The position numbers were made by a program, and so were the translations under genes. A stretch of DNA of 64,000 bases, taken from Thermocrinis jamiesonii. Its GTDB lineage: Bacteria > Aquificota > Aquificia > Aquificales > Aquificaceae. The stretch is taken from NCBI RefSeq assembly GCF_000702425.1, contig NZ_JNIE01000003.1, positions 186,650 through 250,649 of the forward strand. Direction: 5' to 3'. Below, one piece after another: positions 7,568 through 53,859 of the stretch. The notes beneath the pieces are model-generated. The model searched no databases and was not told the DNA's origin. It saw only the letters and a program-made list of their open reading frames with translations. Position 1 is the first letter of the stretch, and each line of letters starts with the position of its first letter.

Positions 7568-7648
7568 TCCGCATACCTCCTTTTAAATTTTTTTTTACTA
7601 CTTATTTTAAATAAACCTATAAGTCTCAAACAATGATTAATCTCAGTT

Positions 7649-8824
7649 TTATAAAAAGCTTAAGGTTTTTTCTATTCTGTGTATTCCTTCTTCAAGTATG
7701 TCCTCTGAAACGCAATAAGAAATTCTTATGTAACCTTCCCTTCCAAAGGCAGACCCTGGAACTACAGCCACATTGCCCTTTTCCAACAAAAATTCAGCCA
7801 GTGCAAGATCAGAACCTAATTTAGCGGAGTAAAAACTCAGATTTGGGAATATGTAAAAAGCGCCTTTTGGCTTCGCTACGCTGACGTTGGGTATGCGATT
7901 AAGTAATTCGTATGCTAAATCTCTCCTTCTTTGAAAGGCATTATGCATAGTTTGAATAAATTTTTTACTCTCTGGGTTTTTCAGAGCTTCAAGGGCACCA
8001 TACTGTGCGAAGGTTGTTGCATTGGAAATGGTCTGACTGTTAAGATCTGCTATAATCTTAGAAAACTTTTCGGGACATGCTACATAACCTATCCTCCAAC
8101 CTGTCATAGAATAGGTCTTTGAAAAGGCATTTACAGTAAAGGTTATTTCTCTGATCTCCTTAGAAAGGCTTGCAGGACTTACAAACTTTTCATTGTCATA
8201 CACAAAAGCTTCATAACATTCATCCGAGATTATAAATATGCGGTGTTTTAAACACAGATCTGCTATCTTTCTCATCTCTCCTTCCGGGATTACTGCTCCA
8301 GTAGGATTGGATGGGGAGTTTAGAACCAAAGCTTTAGTTCTTCTCGTTATATGGGGCAGTATATCCTCAGCGGTTAATACAAATTGCTTTTCTTCACTGA
8401 GCATTATTTCCTTAGGTTTTGCCCCACATAAAAGTATCTGCTCTGGATAGGTGACCCAATACGGAGAAGGTAGTAGAACCTCATCCCCCTCCTCAAGTAT
8501 AGCGGTAAAAACTAAATACAATGCCATCTTAGCACCTGCTGTTACGACTATCTCCGATGGTTTGTATTCTACACCGTTCTCTTTTAAAAGCTTTTCTGAA
8601 AGAGCTTCTCTTAAAGGAAGAATTCCAGCAGAAGGGCTGTATTTTGTCTTTCCTTCTTTTAGGGCTCTTATACACGCTTCCTTCACAAACTCTGGAGTGT
8701 CAAAATCTGGCTCTCCAGCCCCAAAACCTATCACATCCACGCCTTGACTTTTTAGGTAATTTACCTTAGCGGTTAGCGCTAACGTAGGTGCAGGCTTTAT
8801 GTGAGATACTCTTTTGGATAGCAT
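7649..8824 (-). CDS. aspC: Class I aminotransferase (aspartate aminotransferase type)
   Basis: A 391-residue fold-type I PLP enzyme. Motifs seen are GFGAGEPDFDTP near residue 33, NSPSNPTGAV (169-178) that binds the cofactor, SDECYEAFVYD, and NAFSKTYSMTGWRIGY, where Lys236 should form the Schiff base with PLP. A conserved Arg lies in YIRISYC near the C-terminus and binds the substrate carboxylate. It probably exchanges amino groups between aspartate and 2-oxoglutarate; other amino-acid substrates are possible. There is no ribosome-binding site, but an exact TATAAT lies 8 bases before the ATG. Confidence 0.9.
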   Translation of the reverse strand: MLSKRVSHIKPAPTLALTAKVNYLKSQGVDVIGFGAGEPDFDTPEFVKEACIRALKEGKTKYSPSAGILPLREALSEKLLKENGVEYKPSEIVVTAGAKMALYLVFTAILEEGDEVLLPSPYWVTYPEQILLCGAKPKEIMLSEEKQFVLTAEDILPHITRRTKALVLNSPSNPTGAVIPEGEMRKIADLCLKHRIFIISDECYEAFVYDNEKFVSPASLSKEIREITFTVNAFSKTYSMTGWRIGYVACPEKFSKIIADLNSQTISNATTFAQYGALEALKNPESKKFIQTMHNAFQRRRDLAYELLNRIPNVSVAKPKGAFYIFPNLSFYSAKLGSDLALAEFLLEKGNVAVVPGSAFGREGYIRISYCVSEDILEEGIHRIEKTLSFL

Positions 8825-8832
8825 GATCTTTT

Positions 8833-8838
8833 ATTATA
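8833..8838 (-). promoter_or_regulatory. -10 element of aspC (TATAAT)
   Basis: An exact TATAAT on the minus strand, 8 bases before the ATG at 8824, with no Shine-Dalgarno sequence. A leaderless transcript is inferred. Confidence 0.5.
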
Positions 8839-8896
8839 AAACACATTTGGTAAAGCGTTGAGTTATTTTTAGCGAAATTGGGTAATGAGTTTAGTT

Positions 8897-9097
8897 TTAG
8901 ATAAGATTTCTCTTCTTCATAGCCTTAATTATTCTCTTTCTCGCTTGGCGTTCTCTTCTTTTCCTTTTCTCGCTTGGTTTTTCATAAAACTGGCGTCTTC
9001 TTACTTCTGTTAGTATTCCTTCTTTTTCTACTATCCTCTTAAATTTCTTGAGTGCCTTTTCAAAGGGTTCATTTTCTTCAACCACCACCAATACCAA
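8897..9097 (-). CDS. rpsU: Small ribosomal subunit protein bS21
   Basis: A 66-residue basic protein of the 30S platform. It reads [20 protein letters not shown], matching the usual bS21 start, and ends in a run of Arg/Lys-rich helix ([20 protein letters not shown]). The TTG at 9097 is chosen as start because GAGGAGG stands at the right distance before it. The upstream GTG at 9106 is part of that Shine-Dalgarno sequence itself and would add three residues. The next gene upstream, queD, ends 12 bases before the GTG, so the two are probably co-transcribed. Confidence 0.93.
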
Positions 9098-9118
9098 CTT
9101 TTTCACCTCCTCTATAAA

Positions 9119-9619
9119 TTATAACACGTTTTCCGAATACTCCGCTTTTGAGGTTGCGGTCTCCCAAAGGACGACTTTTATTACTTTAACCTCTTCCAAC
9201 AAATTTGCTTCTTTTAGTTTTTGCTTTAAGAAATCATAAAAGAATTTGGCAAGGGCTTCCGCTGTAGGACAAAAGTCTACGGGAAATATTTTTAATGCTC
9301 CGTACTTTTCTGCCAACTGTTTGAGTTCTGGATACATCGGGTCATTTACGTCTATTATAAAGCTGTGGTCTATGGTGTCTATTAAATCTTTTAGGGCATT
9401 CTTGACGTGATAAAAGTCTATTACCATATCCTGCTCGGATAGACTATCCGAACCCAAAACCACTTCCAAGACATAACTATGTCCATGTAGGTTGACACAC
9501 TTGTTTACAGGTATTTCCTTTCCTAAGGAAAAGTTTGAACCTCTCCCATGCGTTAAGTTTTGTTTCCAAACCCTGTGTCCTGCTTCAAATCTAAAGGTCT
9601 TTGATATCTGCCACTTCAA
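9119..9619 (-). CDS. queD: 6-pyruvoyl-tetrahydropterin synthase / QueD family protein
   Basis: A 166-residue T-fold enzyme. Zinc ligands are visible as His15 (FEAGHRVW) and His45/His47 (CVNLHGHSY). The same stretch contains the CxxxHGH arrangement of 6-carboxytetrahydropterin synthases (QueD), with Cys41 as the likely catalytic residue. DHSFII and [10 protein letters not shown] complete the active site. QueD converts dihydroneopterin triphosphate on the way to queuosine; a role in pterin synthesis is the alternative. It overlaps panD by four bases (ATGA-type coupling) and lies just upstream of rpsU. Confidence 0.88.
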
Positions 9620-47204: not shown

Positions 47205-47576
47205 ATGTTTGGCGGTAAAAAAAAGGAACCGAGTGTAAGTCAGGAAATTAAAACTCTGATAAGTGCAGGAACGATTTTTGAAGGCAACATTACAGTCCCA
47301 GAGGGGATTACACGAATAGACGGGAAAGTTGTGGGAAATATTAACGGCAATGGCTGTGTCATAATAGGGGAAAGCGGAAGTGTGAAGGGAGATATAAGCG
47401 TGGATAGTTTAATCGCATACGGAGAGATTTCGGGAAATATAAAGGCAAGAAGTGTAGAGCTCAAGAATGGTTCTAAGGTTTTGGGTAACCTTGAAGTTTC
47501 CGAGCTTTATGTGGAGAAGGGAGCGATCTACAATGGCGAGTGCAGAATGGTAGAAGGTTTTAAGGAAAACCCTTAG
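47205..47576 (+). CDS. Bactofilin
   Basis: A 123-residue beta-helix cytoskeletal protein with the DUF583 core: SAGTIFEGNITVPEGITRID, GKVVGNINGNGCVIIGES, SVKGDISVDSLIAYGEISGN. A short basic N-terminus and acidic tail flank it. Bactofilins polymerise without nucleotides and often work with M23 peptidases on cell shape; here the M23 gene lies 17 bases upstream. GGAAGG precedes the ATG; four-base convergent overlap with sbtB. Confidence 0.93.
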   Translation: MFGGKKKEPSVSQEIKTLISAGTIFEGNITVPEGITRIDGKVVGNINGNGCVIIGESGSVKGDISVDSLIAYGEISGNIKARSVELKNGSKVLGNLEVSELYVEKGAIYNGECRMVEGFKENP

Positions 47577-47866
47577 TGTTTTACATAAAGCACATCTGAA
47601 ATTAAGCACACTCCACCGTATTTTTTCAGATAAGGGACAATGTCTTTGGCTATCTCTTCCGCTATTTTCTCTTCGCAAACAGTAAAGATATAGCTGTTTT
47701 TAAAAGTATCTGTGATCTCATCCCCCCTCATCAATCCTCTTTCACCAAGCCCAAGGGCATCCTCTATAACCGTGTAACCTTTCACACCTTTACTTTCCAA
47801 AAATTCCAAAATTCTCTTCAGGTAAGGCTTGTTTACCACAATCTCTACTTTCTTTTGTGCAATCAT
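47573..47866 (-). CDS. sbtB: PII-like signal protein, SbtB type
   Basis: A 97-residue ferredoxin-like fold protein with the PII pattern: KVEIVVNKPYLKRILEFLES, GYTVIEDALGLGERGLMRGDE, and a final YGGVCLISDVLYVKH. The loop GERG-RGDE stands where PII proteins bind nucleotides. Its start is 3 bases after the sbtA stop, with GGGGGTAAGG before the ATG. The C-terminal CxPxxxC redox loop of cyanobacterial SbtB is absent. It probably gates SbtA in response to adenine nucleotides. Confidence 0.88.
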   Translation of the reverse strand: MIAQKKVEIVVNKPYLKRILEFLESKGVKGYTVIEDALGLGERGLMRGDEITDTFKNSYIFTVCEEKIAEEIAKDIVPYLKKYGGVCLISDVLYVKH

Positions 47867-47869
47867 ACC

Positions 47870-48844
47870 TTACCCCCATATAAGGCTAATCAATTGATAG
47901 TATAAAGGAATACCTATGGTAATGTTAAAGGGGAAAGTTAAGGCTAAGCTCATGGTAACATAAAAACTTGGGTTTGCTTCTGGAAGAGAAAGTCTCATTG
48001 CTGCGGGCACCGCTATATAGGATGCACTTGCACATAGCAAAGAAAACATAAAGGCATCTCCTTTAGAAAACCCTAAAAGCTTTGCCAGTAATATCGCAAC
48101 TGCTGCGTTGAAAATAGGAAAAAGAATACCAAAGGCTACTAAAAATCTACCTACTTTCTTTATCGTGCCCATCTGCCTTGCGGCTACTATCCCCATGTCA
48201 AGCAGAAAGAAAGCTAACATAGGTTTAAAAAGGTTTCCAAAAAAGGGTTCCATACTTTTCCAACCCTTTTCTCCTACAAGAATGCCCACAAAAAAGGAGC
48301 CCATAAGCAAGAAAACTGAACCATTAAAGAATGCTTCTTTGAATATTTCCTTCCAGTTTGCCCTTTCTTCGCCATTTTGATTTTTAGCAAGCAAAGAAAC
48401 AAGCAATAAACCCACTATTATGGCTGGTGACTCCATAAGAGCCATTGCCGCCACCATGTATCCACCATAACTTTCTCCCAAAGAGTTAAGAAAGGCTCCA
48501 CCTGTTATAAAGGTAACCGCACTTATAGAGCCATAGGTAGCCGCTATCGCAGCGGCATTATACACATCAAGCTTTAACCTAAGTATGAAAAAGCCGTATA
48601 TTGGAACCGCCACTGCCATAAACACGGCAGAAAGTAGAACCAATAAAACATAAAGACTTAGACTGCTTTGGGCTATCTTATAACCACCCTGCAAACCTAT
48701 GGATATTAAAAGGAAGAGAGAGAAGAACTTAGGTAAAGGTTGTGGAATATCAAGGTCAGACTTTACAAAAACCGCAAGCATACCCAAAAAGAAAAACAGT
48801 ATGGGAGGGTTGAGTATGTTCTGAAGCACAAGCTCTAAGCTCAT
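47870..48844 (-). CDS. sbtA: Sodium-dependent bicarbonate transporter SbtA
   Basis: A 324-residue membrane protein with about ten hydrophobic segments in two inverted halves. Conserved SbtA stretches are ILNPPILFFFLGMLAVFVKS, ATYGSISAVTFITGG, ALMESPAIIVGLLLV and LLCASASYIAVPAAMRLSLP. It imports bicarbonate with sodium. In an organism that fixes CO2 by the reductive TCA cycle this feeds the carboxylases encoded upstream in the same operon. Confidence 0.93.
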   Translation of the reverse strand: MSLELVLQNILNPPILFFFLGMLAVFVKSDLDIPQPLPKFFSLFLLISIGLQGGYKIAQSSLSLYVLLVLLSAVFMAVAVPIYGFFILRLKLDVYNAAAIAATYGSISAVTFITGGAFLNSLGESYGGYMVAAMALMESPAIIVGLLLVSLLAKNQNGEERANWKEIFKEAFFNGSVFLLMGSFFVGILVGEKGWKSMEPFFGNLFKPMLAFFLLDMGIVAARQMGTIKKVGRFLVAFGILFPIFNAAVAILLAKLLGFSKGDAFMFSLLCASASYIAVPAAMRLSLPEANPSFYVTMSLALTFPFNITIGIPLYYQLISLIWG

Positions 48845-48848
48845 GATC

Positions 48849-49763
48849 CTACAACTTCATACGAATGGGTGCGGGAGTTTTTGATATGAATACTAAAAAA
48901 CTTTTACCTTTGTAATTGGGAAGCTCATTTCCAAAGTCAAAGTATCCAAAGCTGTAATTTACAAGCACAGGATAGGGTGCGTGCTTTATCCTAATTATTC
49001 CCTTTGCCCTTACAACTTCCTCAGGTAGCTCTTTGAACATCCTTTGTAGTTCTTCGTATTCAATAGGCTCTTCGTAGTATTGCACGCTTTGGTAGTATGA
49101 ATGGTGGTGATGATCACCTTGTGAAATTTCAAGTAGATCGTTCAAAGAGTAGGATCCTGCGAAAAATTCCTCCGGAAGTATGCCATAAGCGGTCTTATAA
49201 ATGCTAAGCCTACTGTAAACTTTCTCTCCGGTAAAAGTATTTCTTAGTGCGTAAGTTTCCCAAATACTTCTAACTTCTTCTTCCAAATTTTGAAGCTCTT
49301 CCTGAGAAACAAGATCCACTTTGTTTATAACCACCACGTTGGATCCACCGATCTGATAAAGGGCTGTATGGTCCTGTTTGTATTTGTGAAAGTTTTTAGC
49401 GTCTATTACGCAGATTATGGCTTCCAAAGAGCATCCTAAGCTTTTGAGACTGAAGGCTACAGGAAAGGGCTCAGCGGATCCAGAAGTTTCCACCAAAATA
49501 ACCTCCGGGCTATACTTTTCCCTTATTTCCGATAAAGCTTTTTCAAACTCTGCATGCAAAGTACAGCATATACACCCTTCCGGCAGTTCTACCACGCTTG
49601 AATATACATTTTCAAGCACTTTGCCATCTACGCCAACTTCTCCAAACTCATTTACTATAACCGCTACCTTTTTATCTTTGAAATGCTTCCTTGCGGAGTT
49701 TAAAAGCAGTGTGGTTTTTCCACTTCCCAAAAAACCTGTTATTACAAAGGCGGGGATCATCAT
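48849..49763 (-). CDS. COG0523 (CobW/ZNG1) GTPase metallochaperone
   Basis: A 304-residue G3E GTPase. Walker A is GFLGSGKTTLLL, followed by the metal motif ELPEGCICC, VILVETSGSAEP and the NKVD base-recognition motif. A His-rich patch GDHHHHSYY near residue 210 may bind metal. Family members deliver zinc, cobalt or other metals to enzymes. Lying in an inorganic-carbon operon, it may supply a carbonic anhydrase or another enzyme. ATG overlaps the stop of the upstream gene. Confidence 0.9.
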   Translation of the reverse strand: MMIPAFVITGFLGSGKTTLLLNSARKHFKDKKVAVIVNEFGEVGVDGKVLENVYSSVVELPEGCICCTLHAEFEKALSEIREKYSPEVILVETSGSAEPFPVAFSLKSLGCSLEAIICVIDAKNFHKYKQDHTALYQIGGSNVVVINKVDLVSQEELQNLEEEVRSIWETYALRNTFTGEKVYSRLSIYKTAYGILPEEFFAGSYSLNDLLEISQGDHHHHSYYQSVQYYEEPIEYEELQRMFKELPEEVVRAKGIIRIKHAPYPVLVNYSFGYFDFGNELPNYKGKSFLVFISKTPAPIRMKL

Positions 49764-50041
49764 TCTCCACCGTATTCTACCGAGTCTATCTCCTCCAAAA
49801 ATTGCTCAATCTGAAAGGTTACGAAGTTGGCAAGGTCCTTTACGTCTTTTTCCCAGTATTCCTTGTCTATGTCTATTCTCTTTTCATGCACGCTGTGCTC
49901 TTCAACTACGTATCTAACGATTAGGTAAGGAATCCCACAGGATTCATCAAAGCACACTTCCAGATCCACATCAGGATTTGCCATGTTTTTTTCCACTTCC
50001 TCAGCCAACTGTTCAAACTTTTTCTTCAACTGCTCTTCCAT
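49760..50041 (-). CDS. Hypothetical protein of the carbon operon
   Basis: A 93-residue acidic protein starting with a helix (EEQLKKKFEQLAEEVEKNM), then a beta segment with two Cys (VCFDESCGIPYLIVRYVV). No family recognised. It starts 3 bases after the ferredoxin stop, with GGGAG before the ATG, and overlaps the next gene (ATGA). The CFDESC pair could bind metal, which would suit its neighbour, a COG0523 chaperone; this is a guess. Confidence 0.7.
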   Translation of the reverse strand: MEEQLKKKFEQLAEEVEKNMANPDVDLEVCFDESCGIPYLIVRYVVEEHSVHEKRIDIDKEYWEKDVKDLANFVTFQIEQFLEEIDSVEYGGE

Positions 50042-50044
50042 GCT

Positions 50045-50269
50045 TTAGTCTCCCGAAGTCATCATAACCATCCGTATGCAGTTTCTCTTTAGAAGGTCAG
50101 AACACACATAAACGCATATGGCACAACCTTTACATCTTGAAGTATTTACCCAAGCGGTGTGCTTAGAACTTTCATACATAAGAGTGTTTGGCTCGGGACA
50201 AAAGAGCACACACTGCTTGCAGTTATACTTTGCACATTCAGCCTCATTTACCTCCGCCACGTAATACAT
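50045..50269 (-). CDS. 2-oxoacid:ferredoxin oxidoreductase delta subunit (ferredoxin-type)
   Basis: A 74-residue iron-sulfur subunit. Eight or more cysteines are arranged as CAKYNCKQCVLFCPEP and CKGCAICVYVCSDLL, enough for two [4Fe-4S] clusters, plus a further Cys near the end. This is the delta subunit of Por/For-type enzymes. It is the fifth gene of the operon, 24 bases after the gamma subunit. Confidence 0.9.
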   Translation of the reverse strand: MYYVAEVNEAECAKYNCKQCVLFCPEPNTLMYESSKHTAWVNTSRCKGCAICVYVCSDLLKRNCIRMVMMTSGD

Positions 50270-50293
50270 ACCTCAACCTACCTCCAATGGATG

Positions 50294-50977
50294 TTATCGT
50301 GTGTAAGCTTCTTCCTCTACCCATCCCTTTTCCTCCGCAATCTTAAACGCCTCTTTTATGACCTGCATATTCTTTTCAAGCAGTTCCATTTTCTTCTTAA
50401 ACTTCTTTTCTATTGCACTGTCAAGGGCTGTGGTTCCTCCAGAGGCAACAAAGGTATTGCCCAAAAATCTTTCCCTAACCGCCTGCTCTATATGTTCAAA
50501 ACCTACAAGCCTTGTTATTCCAAAGAACAGCCCTACCATAGCCATGTTAGTAGCAAGTTCTGTGCCCGCTATGTCTAGGGCTAACTTTGTTGCGGGAAAC
50601 ATATAAACCTTAGTGTTGAGCTCTTCAAGAATTTTCCAATCCTCTTCAGGTATTATATCCACGTCTGTATTTATTATAACAGTTCCGTTTTCCTTAAGTC
50701 CAGAGTAAAAGGGCATGGTGTAGGACTTTCCGTGTGTTATAACCTGAGGATGGTAGATCATTATCACGTTTGGATAGACCACCTCTCCCACTTCGTAGAT
50801 GGGCTGATCTGAAACCCTTACGTAAGCTTCCACCGGAGCCATTCTCTTTTCAGAGCCAAAGAAGGGAACCAATGTAGCATACTTTCCTGCCGCAGACATA
50901 GCATTTCCAATAATATGGGCGGAGGTGACGACCCCCTGCCCACCAACACCTGCTATGCGTATGTTATACCTTTTCAT
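50294..50977 (-). CDS. 2-oxoacid:ferredoxin oxidoreductase gamma subunit (Por/For type)
   Basis: 227 residues. It opens NIRIAGVGGQGVVTSAHIIG, the gamma-subunit signature, then YATLVPFFGSEKRMAPVEA. The last ~50 residues are a helical extension. The subunit helps to bind coenzyme A. Four-base overlap with the beta subunit. Confidence 0.93.
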   Translation of the reverse strand: MKRYNIRIAGVGGQGVVTSAHIIGNAMSAAGKYATLVPFFGSEKRMAPVEAYVRVSDQPIYEVGEVVYPNVIMIYHPQVITHGKSYTMPFYSGLKENGTVIINTDVDIIPEEDWKILEELNTKVYMFPATKLALDIAGTELATNMAMVGLFFGITRLVGFEHIEQAVRERFLGNTFVASGGTTALDSAIEKKFKKKMELLEKNMQVIKEAFKIAEEKGWVEEEAYTR

Positions 50978-51840
50978 GCCTTTACCTCCTCAGGCTTCCT
51001 TTCTATCTCCTCAAAGAATTCTCTGACTTCGTCGGTCATCCACTCGTAAAAGGCAAAGTCCTGCTTTTCTCTTTTCCTTGCATCTTCAAGAACTTTTTCT
51101 GTGGGTATGGAATACTCTATGTTGCAAGAAGTGTATGCGTGTATGAAGGTTGGACCAAAGTGCCTTGCGGCAAGAATAGCTCTTCTTACTGTCTTTGCAA
51201 TCCTTTTGGGGTTTGTGGGAGCAAGCTTTGCTACATAGACACAACCTGCTACCTTTGCTAGCTCCACCGCATTTATTTTATCAAACTGTTTACCTTTTGG
51301 CGCCATCTTAAGTTGAACACCCTTTGGAGACATTCCACTCTCTTGACCTCCGGTGTTTCCATAAACTTCATTGTCCACCATTATGGTTGTGAATTTTTCT
51401 TTTCTGAACCAAGAGTGCATGGTCATACCAAAACCTATGTCTATAAGACCACCGTCTCCTGCTATAACCACCACGTCTTTGTGTTTGTCTGGGAACCTGA
51501 TGGTAAGCGCTCTTTTAAGACCAGAAGCTACTGCGTTTGTGTCTCCGTAGTTTCCATAAATGAAAGGAACTGCTGCCTGAGAAAGGGCGAGCCTTGCACA
51601 CCCTGCTGTGCCTATAACTATGGTATCCTCTGGATTGGGCAAGGCTGCATAAAAGACCCTTATGAAGTAAGCCATGAAGCATCCAGCACACATTGGATGC
51701 TCTTCTAAAAGCTCTTTGAACTGTCCAAGCTGTTGCACATCTATTTGCTTGCCAAACTGCCCATATTTGACTAAATCCACATAGTCTTTGGGCATGTATC
51801 TCTCAAAGCCTGGAGAGATCCTTACGTATTCCAAACCCAT
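50974..51840 (-). CDS. 2-oxoacid:ferredoxin oxidoreductase beta subunit (Por/For type)
   Basis: 288 residues. Thiamine diphosphate binding is visible as GDGGLIDIGFG followed by DNEVYGNTGGQ. MCAGCFMAYF provides cluster-binding Cys residues near residue 50. With the alpha subunit it forms the active site that makes pyruvate or 2-oxoglutarate from an acyl-CoA, CO2 and reduced ferredoxin in the reductive TCA cycle. Substrate choice cannot be fixed from sequence reading. Confidence 0.94.
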   Translation of the reverse strand: MGLEYVRISPGFERYMPKDYVDLVKYGQFGKQIDVQQLGQFKELLEEHPMCAGCFMAYFIRVFYAALPNPEDTIVIGTAGCARLALSQAAVPFIYGNYGDTNAVASGLKRALTIRFPDKHKDVVVIAGDGGLIDIGFGMTMHSWFRKEKFTTIMVDNEVYGNTGGQESGMSPKGVQLKMAPKGKQFDKINAVELAKVAGCVYVAKLAPTNPKRIAKTVRRAILAARHFGPTFIHAYTSCNIEYSIPTEKVLEDARKREKQDFAFYEWMTDEVREFFEEIERKPEEVKA

Positions 51841-51863
51841 GATAATACCTCCTTTTTAGTTTT

Positions 51864-53033
51864 TTAGACTACTACTTTCTTTTCCTTCTTTATGCCAAAG
51901 GCGGAATATACCTTTTCCATGATAAGTTCCACTGGCAAGGTCATACCGCCGTAAACCCTTGGACCACCTATAACCTTATCGTTGTCTGGAATGGTAGCCT
52001 TAATTTCTTTGGCTAACCATCCTACTATGTTGTGCTCTGGAACTATTACAGCCTTTGCCTTTTTAAGTACTTCCCTTATCTCCTTTTCTGGGAACGGTCT
52101 TATGGATTTTACTTTAACAAGGCCAACATTTAGGCCTTCCATCTGCGAATACCTTACCGCTTCCCTTCCCTGCGCCGCTGCACAGCCAGAGGCTACTATA
52201 AACACCTCCGCATCAGGATTTACCACCTCTATTGGACCACCTAGATACTTGTATATGTATTTCATAGCCCTTATGTTTGAAGCCCAAACTTCCTGTTGCC
52301 ACACCGCGTGTATTAGATAGCTCATAAAGTTAGACTTCTGAACTGGCGCATCCCTTTGGATCCTTGCGGGAGGTATTTCGCAGTCGGTGGGTGGAACTGG
52401 TGCCTTATATGGGTCCCTTGGGGGTAACTTCATATCTTCTGGGGTCATATTCACGTAACCCTTTGCGTGAGTAACGAAAAATCCTTCGGTGCAAACTGCT
52501 ACCGGTATATAAACATCCACCTTTTCGGATATTACAAAACCCGCCAAAGTAAAGTCAAAAACATCCTGCTGATTTTCTGCATGCAGAACTATCATCCCAC
52601 AGTTCAAAAGGTAAGAGATCTCTATGTTGTCAGGCTGTATGGAAAGGGGAGCATTTACTACTCTTGTTAGCACACCAAGCACCGCAGGTATTCTGTGCCC
52701 TGGCCAAGAAGCAATTGCTTCAAGACCTCTTAAAAGACCAGGTCCTGAGGTAGCAGAAAAAGCCCTTGCACCACCTCTTACCGCACCCGCTATGGCAGAC
52801 ATAGCACCATATTCCTCTTCTGCCCTGTAGTAATCCCTAAGATAGCCCTGAGCCCAAAGATCTCCTACAAGGTGCATAACCTCAGATTGGGGAGTGATAG
52901 GATAGGCTATGGCAATATCTACGTTGGCACGCTTGACTGCCTCTGCCATAGCTTGGGCACCTGTTATAAACTTGCGCTCCCTTGGAGCTTCTAAAAGAAG
53001 ATAATCTGCATCTACAACTCTCTGCTCTGGCAT
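51864..53033 (-). CDS. 2-oxoacid:ferredoxin oxidoreductase alpha subunit (Por/For type)
   Basis: 389 residues with the alpha-subunit landmarks: FITGAQAMAEAVKRANVDIA, IAYPITPQSEVMHLVGDL, the EEEYGAMSAIAGAVRGGARA helix and FSATSGPGLL. The C-terminal part (IVASGCAAAQGREAV, VKVKSIRPFPEKEI) is the transketolase-like domain. Size and partner genes resemble the five-subunit pyruvate and 2-oxoglutarate enzymes described in Hydrogenobacter thermophilus. Confidence 0.94.
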   Translation of the reverse strand: MPEQRVVDADYLLLEAPRERKFITGAQAMAEAVKRANVDIAIAYPITPQSEVMHLVGDLWAQGYLRDYYRAEEEYGAMSAIAGAVRGGARAFSATSGPGLLRGLEAIASWPGHRIPAVLGVLTRVVNAPLSIQPDNIEISYLLNCGMIVLHAENQQDVFDFTLAGFVISEKVDVYIPVAVCTEGFFVTHAKGYVNMTPEDMKLPPRDPYKAPVPPTDCEIPPARIQRDAPVQKSNFMSYLIHAVWQQEVWASNIRAMKYIYKYLGGPIEVVNPDAEVFIVASGCAAAQGREAVRYSQMEGLNVGLVKVKSIRPFPEKEIREVLKKAKAVIVPEHNIVGWLAKEIKATIPDNDKVIGGPRVYGGMTLPVELIMEKVYSAFGIKKEKKVVV

Positions 53034-53049
53034 GGTTTTACCTCCAAGT

Positions 53050-53757
53050 TTATTCGCTTTCTTCTACAGTCTCGCCTTTTTTAGGCATAAGAAGGTATAA
53101 GTATTCTCCGTAATCTAGTGCAGAAAGGGTTTCGTATTTTTCAGGTGGAAGGGATGGATTTTCTGGAGGAAGCTTGGGTTCCCACTCTATACCAAGCTCC
53201 TTTCTTACTTGCACAAGCACATCCTTGAACTTCCTTATTTCGTCTGCATGCACATCCCTTAGAGAGACCATTGCGTCTTCGTGTCCCATCTCTGCACACA
53301 AGGCTATAGTAAAGCAATTTGTTCCTGCTCTTATCATCCTAAGAGAAAGGTTTGCATAATGACAATGAACCCCTACGAATATACAGACTTCTATCTTATT
53401 GTGAAGTATGGTAAGGTTTGGATGATTTGGATTTATTTCCGCCTCTGGGTCTATCTTTGGATACTTTGGTCTGTAGTCTGGCATAGGAATAATTCTGCAA
53501 TTGGGAATTTCCATAGCAAGTTCCAACACAGCCTTAGCCTTCTCCATAGCTGATGCGTTCCAACCCCACAAAACCAAAGGTCCCGGGAATATGGTAGGGT
53601 TTCTGCGTGTAAGCAAAGCCTTTGCCGCTTCCCTCATAGCGACTTCTTCGTCCACTATTTCACCATAAAGCAAAGCTTTACCTGGCGGAGGTAGTTCCAC
53701 TCCTTCAAAAGCAGCTGGGGTAGGCATATAACCGACAGGTCCAGGTAGCACTCGCAT
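53050..53757 (-). CDS. 2-oxoacid:ferredoxin oxidoreductase epsilon subunit, CODH-epsilon-like
   Basis: 235 residues. The central part (NPTIFPGPLVLWGWNASAME, then VCIFVGVHCHYANLSLRMI) resembles the epsilon (CdhB-type) subunit fold of CO dehydrogenase/acetyl-CoA synthase complexes. It is the extra subunit of the five-subunit Por/For enzymes of Aquificaceae. It is the first gene of the nine-gene operon, with TAAGGAGG before its ATG. Confidence 0.8.
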   Translation of the reverse strand: MRVLPGPVGYMPTPAAFEGVELPPPGKALLYGEIVDEEVAMREAAKALLTRRNPTIFPGPLVLWGWNASAMEKAKAVLELAMEIPNCRIIPMPDYRPKYPKIDPEAEINPNHPNLTILHNKIEVCIFVGVHCHYANLSLRMIRAGTNCFTIALCAEMGHEDAMVSLRDVHADEIRKFKDVLVQVRKELGIEWEPKLPPENPSLPPEKYETLSALDYGEYLYLLMPKKGETVEESE

Positions 53758-53784
53758 ACTTTACCTCCTTATTTCTTGCATTAT

Positions 53785-53845
53785 CAAAAAATTAGCATAT
53801 GCTTAATAAGTGTCAAGCGTAAATTATATGATATTTATCATAGTT
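53785..53845 (-). promoter_or_regulatory. Promoter/operator region of the carbon operon
   Basis: On the minus strand TTGACA is followed after 16 bases by TAATTT. Two palindromes lie around it: ATGATA-AA-TATCAT upstream and AGCATATGCT in the spacer. They are candidate operator sites for an unknown regulator, since the operon head is the logical control point. Confidence 0.45.
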
Positions 53846-53859
53846 TTTTGTAAAGGCTA

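Follow-up and report, generated by a model that had tools for sequence, protein, structure and literature searches.

A putative inorganic-carbon uptake cassette, exchangeable among Aquificales, behind the 2-oxoglutarate:ferredoxin oxidoreductase operon of Thermocrinis jamiesonii

We analyze a window of 64,000 nucleotides from Thermocrinis jamiesonii (contig NZ_JNIE01000003.1, positions 186,650 to 250,649), in which a minus-strand block of nine genes (47573-53757) runs from the subunits of a ferredoxin oxidoreductase through a small acidic protein and a GTPase to sbtA and sbtB, which encode an Sbt_1-family transporter and a PII-like protein. The block is probably the for operon of the reductive tricarboxylic acid (rTCA) cycle with an exchangeable inorganic-carbon uptake cassette at its 3' end, which would be co-expressed with the oxidoreductase and would supply both it and the carboxylases of the cycle. 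The position of the pump genes beside for suggests that the proteins for carbon uptake and carbon fixation are made together. In relatives of the order Aquificales a non-homologous pump, DabB-DabA, takes the same slot, and such replacement beside one enzyme argues strongly, on comparative grounds, for a functional coupling of uptake with the cycle and names the partner enzyme.

What is understood of carbon concentration comes almost entirely from systems built around Rubisco. A 2024 minireview (PMC10880623) poses the question of a need for regulated uptake in autotrophs that use the rTCA cycle; it describes genes for dissolved inorganic carbon transporters or carbonic anhydrases as co-located with rTCA genes in general, calls the mechanism unstudied, and counts porABCD and korAB among the key genes of its Figure 2. 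Its text names neither the for operon, nor sbtB, nor an exchange of pumps in one slot. In the open-access literature, we found no report of a slot behind the for operon, of SbtAB and DabBA replacing each other, or of a CPII-type protein in such a setting.

The enzyme of the block is assigned as the five-subunit 2-oxoglutarate:ferredoxin oxidoreductase (OGOR, For), because its gene order D-A-B-G-E and its subunit sizes match aq_1166-1171 of Aquifex aeolicus, which were identified as OGOR by activity gel and mass spectrometry (PMC10052474). The delta subunits differ in mass, at 27.6 kDa for OGOR (aq_1166) versus 21.3 kDa for that of the pyruvate enzyme, Por (PMC10052474). Among the for operons of Aquificales, forA is 83-97% identical, versus about 50% to the Por alpha subunit; the genome of the window holds a second alpha-beta-gamma set of this Por type on contig 6 (G000:C6:74095), also about 50% identical. 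In other genomes the Por-type copy is ordered epsilon-delta-alpha-beta-gamma, as in aq_1192a-1200 (PMC10052474), and both copies are widespread across the order. The first-pass annotation had left the choice between Por and For open; the ferredoxin oxidoreductase stands, narrowed to OGOR, while its epsilon and delta labels have to be exchanged, since by the naming in PMC10052474 the CO dehydrogenase-like protein is delta (ForD) and the small ferredoxin-like one epsilon (ForE). The window operon thus resembles forDABGE(F) of Hydrogenobacter thermophilus and aq_1166-1171 in its subunits, their order, the alpha subunit and the forF-like gene that comes next. It differs in what follows: the window operon continues with the GTPase, sbtA and sbtB, that of locus L080 with the GTPase, dabB, dabA and a CPII gene, whereas an Aquifex-like genome has no pump behind.

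All gaps within the block are of 24 bases or less and two 4-base overlaps occur (16, 23, -4, 24, 3, -4, 4 and 3 bases in transcription order, negative values being overlaps). Gene coordinates and Pfam families bear out the tight cluster of nine minus-strand genes described earlier; the family assignments come from Pfam and NCBIfam profiles, which support every gene except that of the 93-residue protein (Table 1). A candidate promoter lies upstream of forD at 53816-53789, with TTGACA at 53816-53811 and TGC-TAATTT 16 bases on. Concerning an internal terminator that would separate sbtA-sbtB from the oxidoreductase, a terminator scan of the block found nothing terminator-like on the minus strand, and a promoter scan counted 15 sites against 12.4 +/- 4.2 in shuffled sequence, which is chance level; these scans carry little information. 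Conservation is more telling, as the same gene order recurs in related genomes and the arrangement is therefore not due to chance.

We surveyed 101 sampled Aquificales genomes, 58 of which have a for/forF anchor. DabA lies within about 4 kb of the anchor in 24 genomes, sbtA within about 1 kb in 15, both in one and neither in 18, the last group including Aquifex-like and Hydrogenobaculum-like genomes (DabA elsewhere) and several in which the contig ends too early. By our own estimate, chance would put a given gene no more than 8 kb away in about 2% of genomes of 1.5 Mb. Conservation of the order proposed in the first-pass annotation is thus partial: sbtAB stands at this place in 15 of the 58, and 24 others hold the unrelated DabB-DabA there. 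An sbtAB pair behind for is not the general rule, but a pump for inorganic carbon of one kind or another usually occupies the slot.

The Dab arrangement is found in several genera of each of two families. At L080 the order is for-forF-GTPase-dabB-dabA-PII (DabA 839 bits), and the product of its PII gene is clearly of CPII type, with a match to CPII structures at 6e-34. The same dabB-dabA-CPII set stands behind for-forF(-GTPase) in Aquificaceae that have no Sbt (L080:10413-16020, and also L078, L079, L081 and L083-L087); its PII-like protein closely resembles the CPII associated with carboxysomes. In Hydrogenothermaceae-type genomes Dab sits between for and por, and one genome (G033) has dabB-sbtA-sbtB-dabA in that interval. 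Genomes with sbtAB in the slot have no DabA, with three exceptions: G013, where DabA is far away, and G027 and G033, which have both pumps, sbtAB of G027 being divergent from for and its dabA on another contig. We found no DabA in the genome of the window. The slot of G022 carries a 96-residue DabA remnant directly behind the for-operon GTPase (L095:6085-6372, G022:C28), while its sbtAB lies on another contig. The DAB/DAC pump (DabA-DabB) with CPII thus shares with the window cassette its slot, its role as an inorganic-carbon pump and, in Aquificaceae, the PII-like end; DabA is not homologous to SbtA, and the DAB pump works by hydration of CO2 and not by HCO3- symport. Abundant DabA has been seen in A. 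aeolicus while it runs the rTCA cycle (PMC10052474). Close relatives of Sbt type and Dab type within one genus offer natural pairs for relating the choice of pump to pH and CO2.

The window SbtA is a full-length Sbt_1 protein, at 402 bits versus a curated cut-off of 27 (PF05982), and stands on a divergent branch of the family, distant from the cyanobacterial SbtA of known structure: its sole match in the PDB is Slr1512, at an E-value of 1.9e-36 over two stretches. The HCO3- ligands of Slr1512 (S114, Y140, S324 and S327) come from docking plus mutants (PMC8352866). S108 and S275, the counterparts of two of the ligand serines, are invariant in 55 of 55 sequences of the window branch. The pair recalls cyanobacterial sbtA-sbtB (Slr1512-Slr1513) in adjacency, families, the predicted PII-like fold and two of the four HCO3- ligands, but its SbtA is on a remote branch, its SbtB lacks the CGPxGC R-loop, and its host runs the rTCA instead of the Calvin cycle.

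That loop is kept in some SbtB homologues only (PMC8352866). The window protein finishes at residue 97 (...ISDVLYVKH) with the C-terminal CGPxGC redox loop missing, and for this reason we call it SbtB-like. Searched alone, it scores 1.9e-6 for SbtB versus 1.1e-5 for CPII, and a profile of its branch gives 6.5e-10 for CPII versus 1.8e-5 for SbtB. Its model (predicted local distance difference test, pLDDT, 86) finds as best fold match the SbtB of the SbtA-SbtB complex 7egk (E 5e-8), followed by CPII; the matched CPII entries of the PDB are titled as ADP- and bicarbonate-bound. On these scores the protein appears to lie between SbtB and the bicarbonate-regulated CPII. At the 80 nearest sbtA loci, taken from Aquificota, Campylobacterota, Cyanobacteriota and others, a PII-like gene directly follows sbtA in nearly all. 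The assignment to an SbtB-type PII protein therefore holds for family, fold and adjacency to sbtA, and does not extend to the cyanobacterial loop. Two cysteines, C64 and C87, are invariant in 14 loop-less SbtB-like proteins of several phyla and possibly form an alternative redox or metal site. In several of the cyanobacteria among the 80 loci, genes like distant NAD(P)H dehydrogenase (NDH) subunits lie near sbtA-sbtB.

Several points weigh against a coupled uptake operon. Aquifex-like and Hydrogenobaculum-like genomes carry DabA far from for, so linkage is not required, and the sampled genomes are related, so the slot counts are not independent. Throughout the 55 sequences of the window branch, Y140 is replaced by M or L and S327 by A; with two of the four docked ligands changed, the protein could take another substrate or bind HCO3- in a different way. 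Finally, OGOR consumes CO2 and not bicarbonate, which makes its link to HCO3- import an indirect one.

This last point shifts attention to the other carboxylases. In autotrophs with the rTCA cycle, two steps take CO2 and others take HCO3-, the substrate of biotin-dependent carboxylases; a direct supply of HCO3- therefore suits 2-oxoglutarate carboxylase and pyruvate carboxylase more than OGOR. The genome of the window has two biotin-dependent carboxylases; one of them, a 653-residue protein encoded beside a biotin carboxylase-like gene, is likely 2-oxoglutarate carboxylase, which works on the product of OGOR. We found no alpha- or beta-carbonic anhydrase in this genome, but carbonic anhydrase is not wholly absent, as was considered at one stage: a gamma-type carbonic anhydrase-like protein is encoded about 3 kb before the window (L197:1339-1872, G000:C3) and matches, at 2.5e-59, a PDB entry under the name carbonic anhydrase family 3. 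Given the two carboxylases and the gamma-type protein, imported HCO3- would be usable directly at two steps and could also refill CO2. What endures of the earlier carbon-concentrating proposal is that uptake of inorganic carbon, a sensor of PII type and a carboxylase of the rTCA cycle share one likely operon, and the tie to carbon uptake in general proves much broader than a single stretch of DNA could show; a direct supply of bicarbonate to that carboxylase does not fit, since OGOR takes CO2.

The proposed mechanism runs as follows. A single transcript would tie the dose of the pump to that of OGOR, so that uptake rises with fixation. SbtA would bring in HCO3- together with Na+, and this HCO3- would be the direct substrate of pyruvate carboxylase and of 2-oxoglutarate carboxylase, whose step comes next after that of OGOR; conversion to CO2, by the gamma-type carbonic anhydrase or by uncatalysed exchange (fast at high temperature), would serve OGOR and pyruvate synthase. 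Gating of SbtA by SbtB through adenine nucleotides is known from cyanobacteria (PMC4275256, PMC8352866), and here the T-loop of SbtB would likewise dock in the cytosolic cleft of SbtA and close it in response to adenine nucleotides and perhaps, to judge by CPII, to bicarbonate as well. Between lineages the cassette would have been swapped, plausibly according to the prevailing form of carbon in the habitat, CO2 for Dab or HCO3- for Sbt.

A stronger version, which we hold only tentatively and put at somewhat below even chances, is that the 3' end of for has been selected as a docking site for pumps that can replace one another, each tending to bring its own PII-like sensor, and that SbtAB and DabBA have filled it repeatedly and independently to give a regulated rTCA module for low CO2. 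If true, this would be an equivalent of the cyanobacterial uptake systems without carboxysome or Rubisco. Mapped on a tree of the For subunits, the state of the slot (Sbt or Dab) must have changed three times or more among the genomes sampled. The for-linked SbtAs are not one clade (their monophyly costs 88.9 units of log-likelihood and is very strongly rejected), and this polyphyly indicates that the sbtAB module moves and is mobile. The window SbtA groups with that of a Leptospiraceae metagenome genome (98/86).

The SbtA tree had been considered as proof of independent arrivals; we dropped this, because ancestral presence with outward transfer is not rejected. A clade of Aquificaceae SbtA with those of Campylobacterota, Leptospiraceae and Acidobacteriota, as against Hydrogenothermaceae, has an approximately unbiased test value (p-AU) of 0.063, and a clade of the window, G013 and Leptospiraceae SbtAs gives p 0.42 and is likewise not rejected. 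Both results accord with a different history, in which Aquificaceae had sbtAB behind for ancestrally, passed it out to those three outside groups, and received Dab later. This account, to which we give roughly one chance in three and which is compatible with our explanation of function, runs up against signs that Dab is the older occupant: the DabA relic in the slot of G022, Dab in the Hydrogenothermaceae slot, and the presence of Dab in the g4 genomes, within which the g2 group is placed with weak support. Very similar SbtA-SbtB pairs occur in two different families (L062 and L069, of G022 and G027), likely as a result of recent transfer.

We regard it as unlikely that the pumps are mere hitch-hikers, placed behind for because the site is permissive and highly expressed, so that expression level and not shared control of a pathway explains the position. 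OGOR subunits are indeed among the most abundant proteins of A. aeolicus (PMC10052474), and sbtAB or dabA lies elsewhere in G022, G009, G035 and G054, but mere permissiveness would not select two modules that are both inorganic-carbon pumps with PII-like partners in Aquificaceae. Less probable still is that SbtA carries another anion, such as a carboxylate or a sulfur anion, with SbtB gating an export or import of cycle intermediates tied to OGOR: the replaced ligands, the remote homology to characterised SbtA and a Labrenzia SbtA-like protein that gave no HCO3- uptake in E. coli (PMC4275256) would allow it, whereas its replacement by DabAB in one and the same slot and the conserved pairing with an SbtB/CPII-like protein speak against it, as would, should the window branch belong to it, a divergent cyanobacterial family with a PII-like partner, SbtA2, which is reported to take up HCO3- (PMC13249358).

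Table 1. Features of the for-sbtAB block, in transcription order (window positions)
Feature	Position	Strand	Evidence
Upstream region of forD: candidate promoter and strong ribosome-binding site AGGAGGT	53758..53859	-	Read from sequence
forD, OGOR delta, CO dehydrogenase/acetyl-CoA synthase epsilon-like	53050..53757	-	CO_dh PF02552 163.8 bits; position and size match aq_1166
forA, OGOR alpha	51864..53033	-	POR_N 215 bits
forB, OGOR beta, thiamine pyrophosphate (TPP) binding	50974..51840	-	TPP_enzyme_C 77 bits; GDGGLID motif
forG, OGOR gamma	50294..50977	-	POR 132 bits
forE, OGOR epsilon, 4Fe-4S ferredoxin-like	50045..50269	-	TIGR02179 31.8 bits (below cutoff); weak 4Fe-4S; Cys motifs
forF-like, 93-residue acidic protein	49760..50041	-	Position after forE; conserved C-terminus EIDSVEYGGE
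COG0523/CobW-family GTPase, GCICC motif, His-rich stretch	48849..49763	-	cobW 165 bits, CobW_C 31.5 bits
sbtA, Sbt_1-family transporter, divergent branch	47870..48844	-	PF05982 402 bits
sbtB, PII-like protein without CGPxGC loop	47573..47866	-	P-II 53.7 bits

The 93-residue protein matches forF by its position in the cluster, written forDABGEF in H. thermophilus (PMC2607301), and not by sequence comparison with the published forF. It directly follows forE in every for operon inspected, has no match in Pfam or NCBIfam, and is modelled by AlphaFold2 (AF2) as a-b-b-b-a (pLDDT 77), a fold for which a search of the PDB returned no match with E below 0.19. At L090:5733-9884 (G006:C10) a two-subunit korAB is followed by forE and forF, so ForF accompanies OGOR of either type. 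The suggestion that ForF and the GTPase form a metal-delivery pair has been set aside: the GTPase is missing beside ForF in 8 of the 34 inspected for/forF loci, including that of an Aquifex-like genome, while ForF always stays after ForE, and the OGOR of A. aeolicus is active (PMC10052474).

Paralogues of ForF (L077:9773-10087 and L180-L190) adjoin genes for ATP synthase b/delta, ndk, a yicC-like gene or rpsO-pnp, neighbours that give no functional clue; they belong to no known family, and most finish with a conserved YGG(E/G) tail. Elsewhere in the genome of the window (G000:C2, L193:2158-3945 and 7604-9442), a SulP-family transporter is encoded within a few kb of the gene for a pyruvate carboxylase-type subunit; the transporter scores 392 bits for TIGR00815, far below the BicA cut-off.

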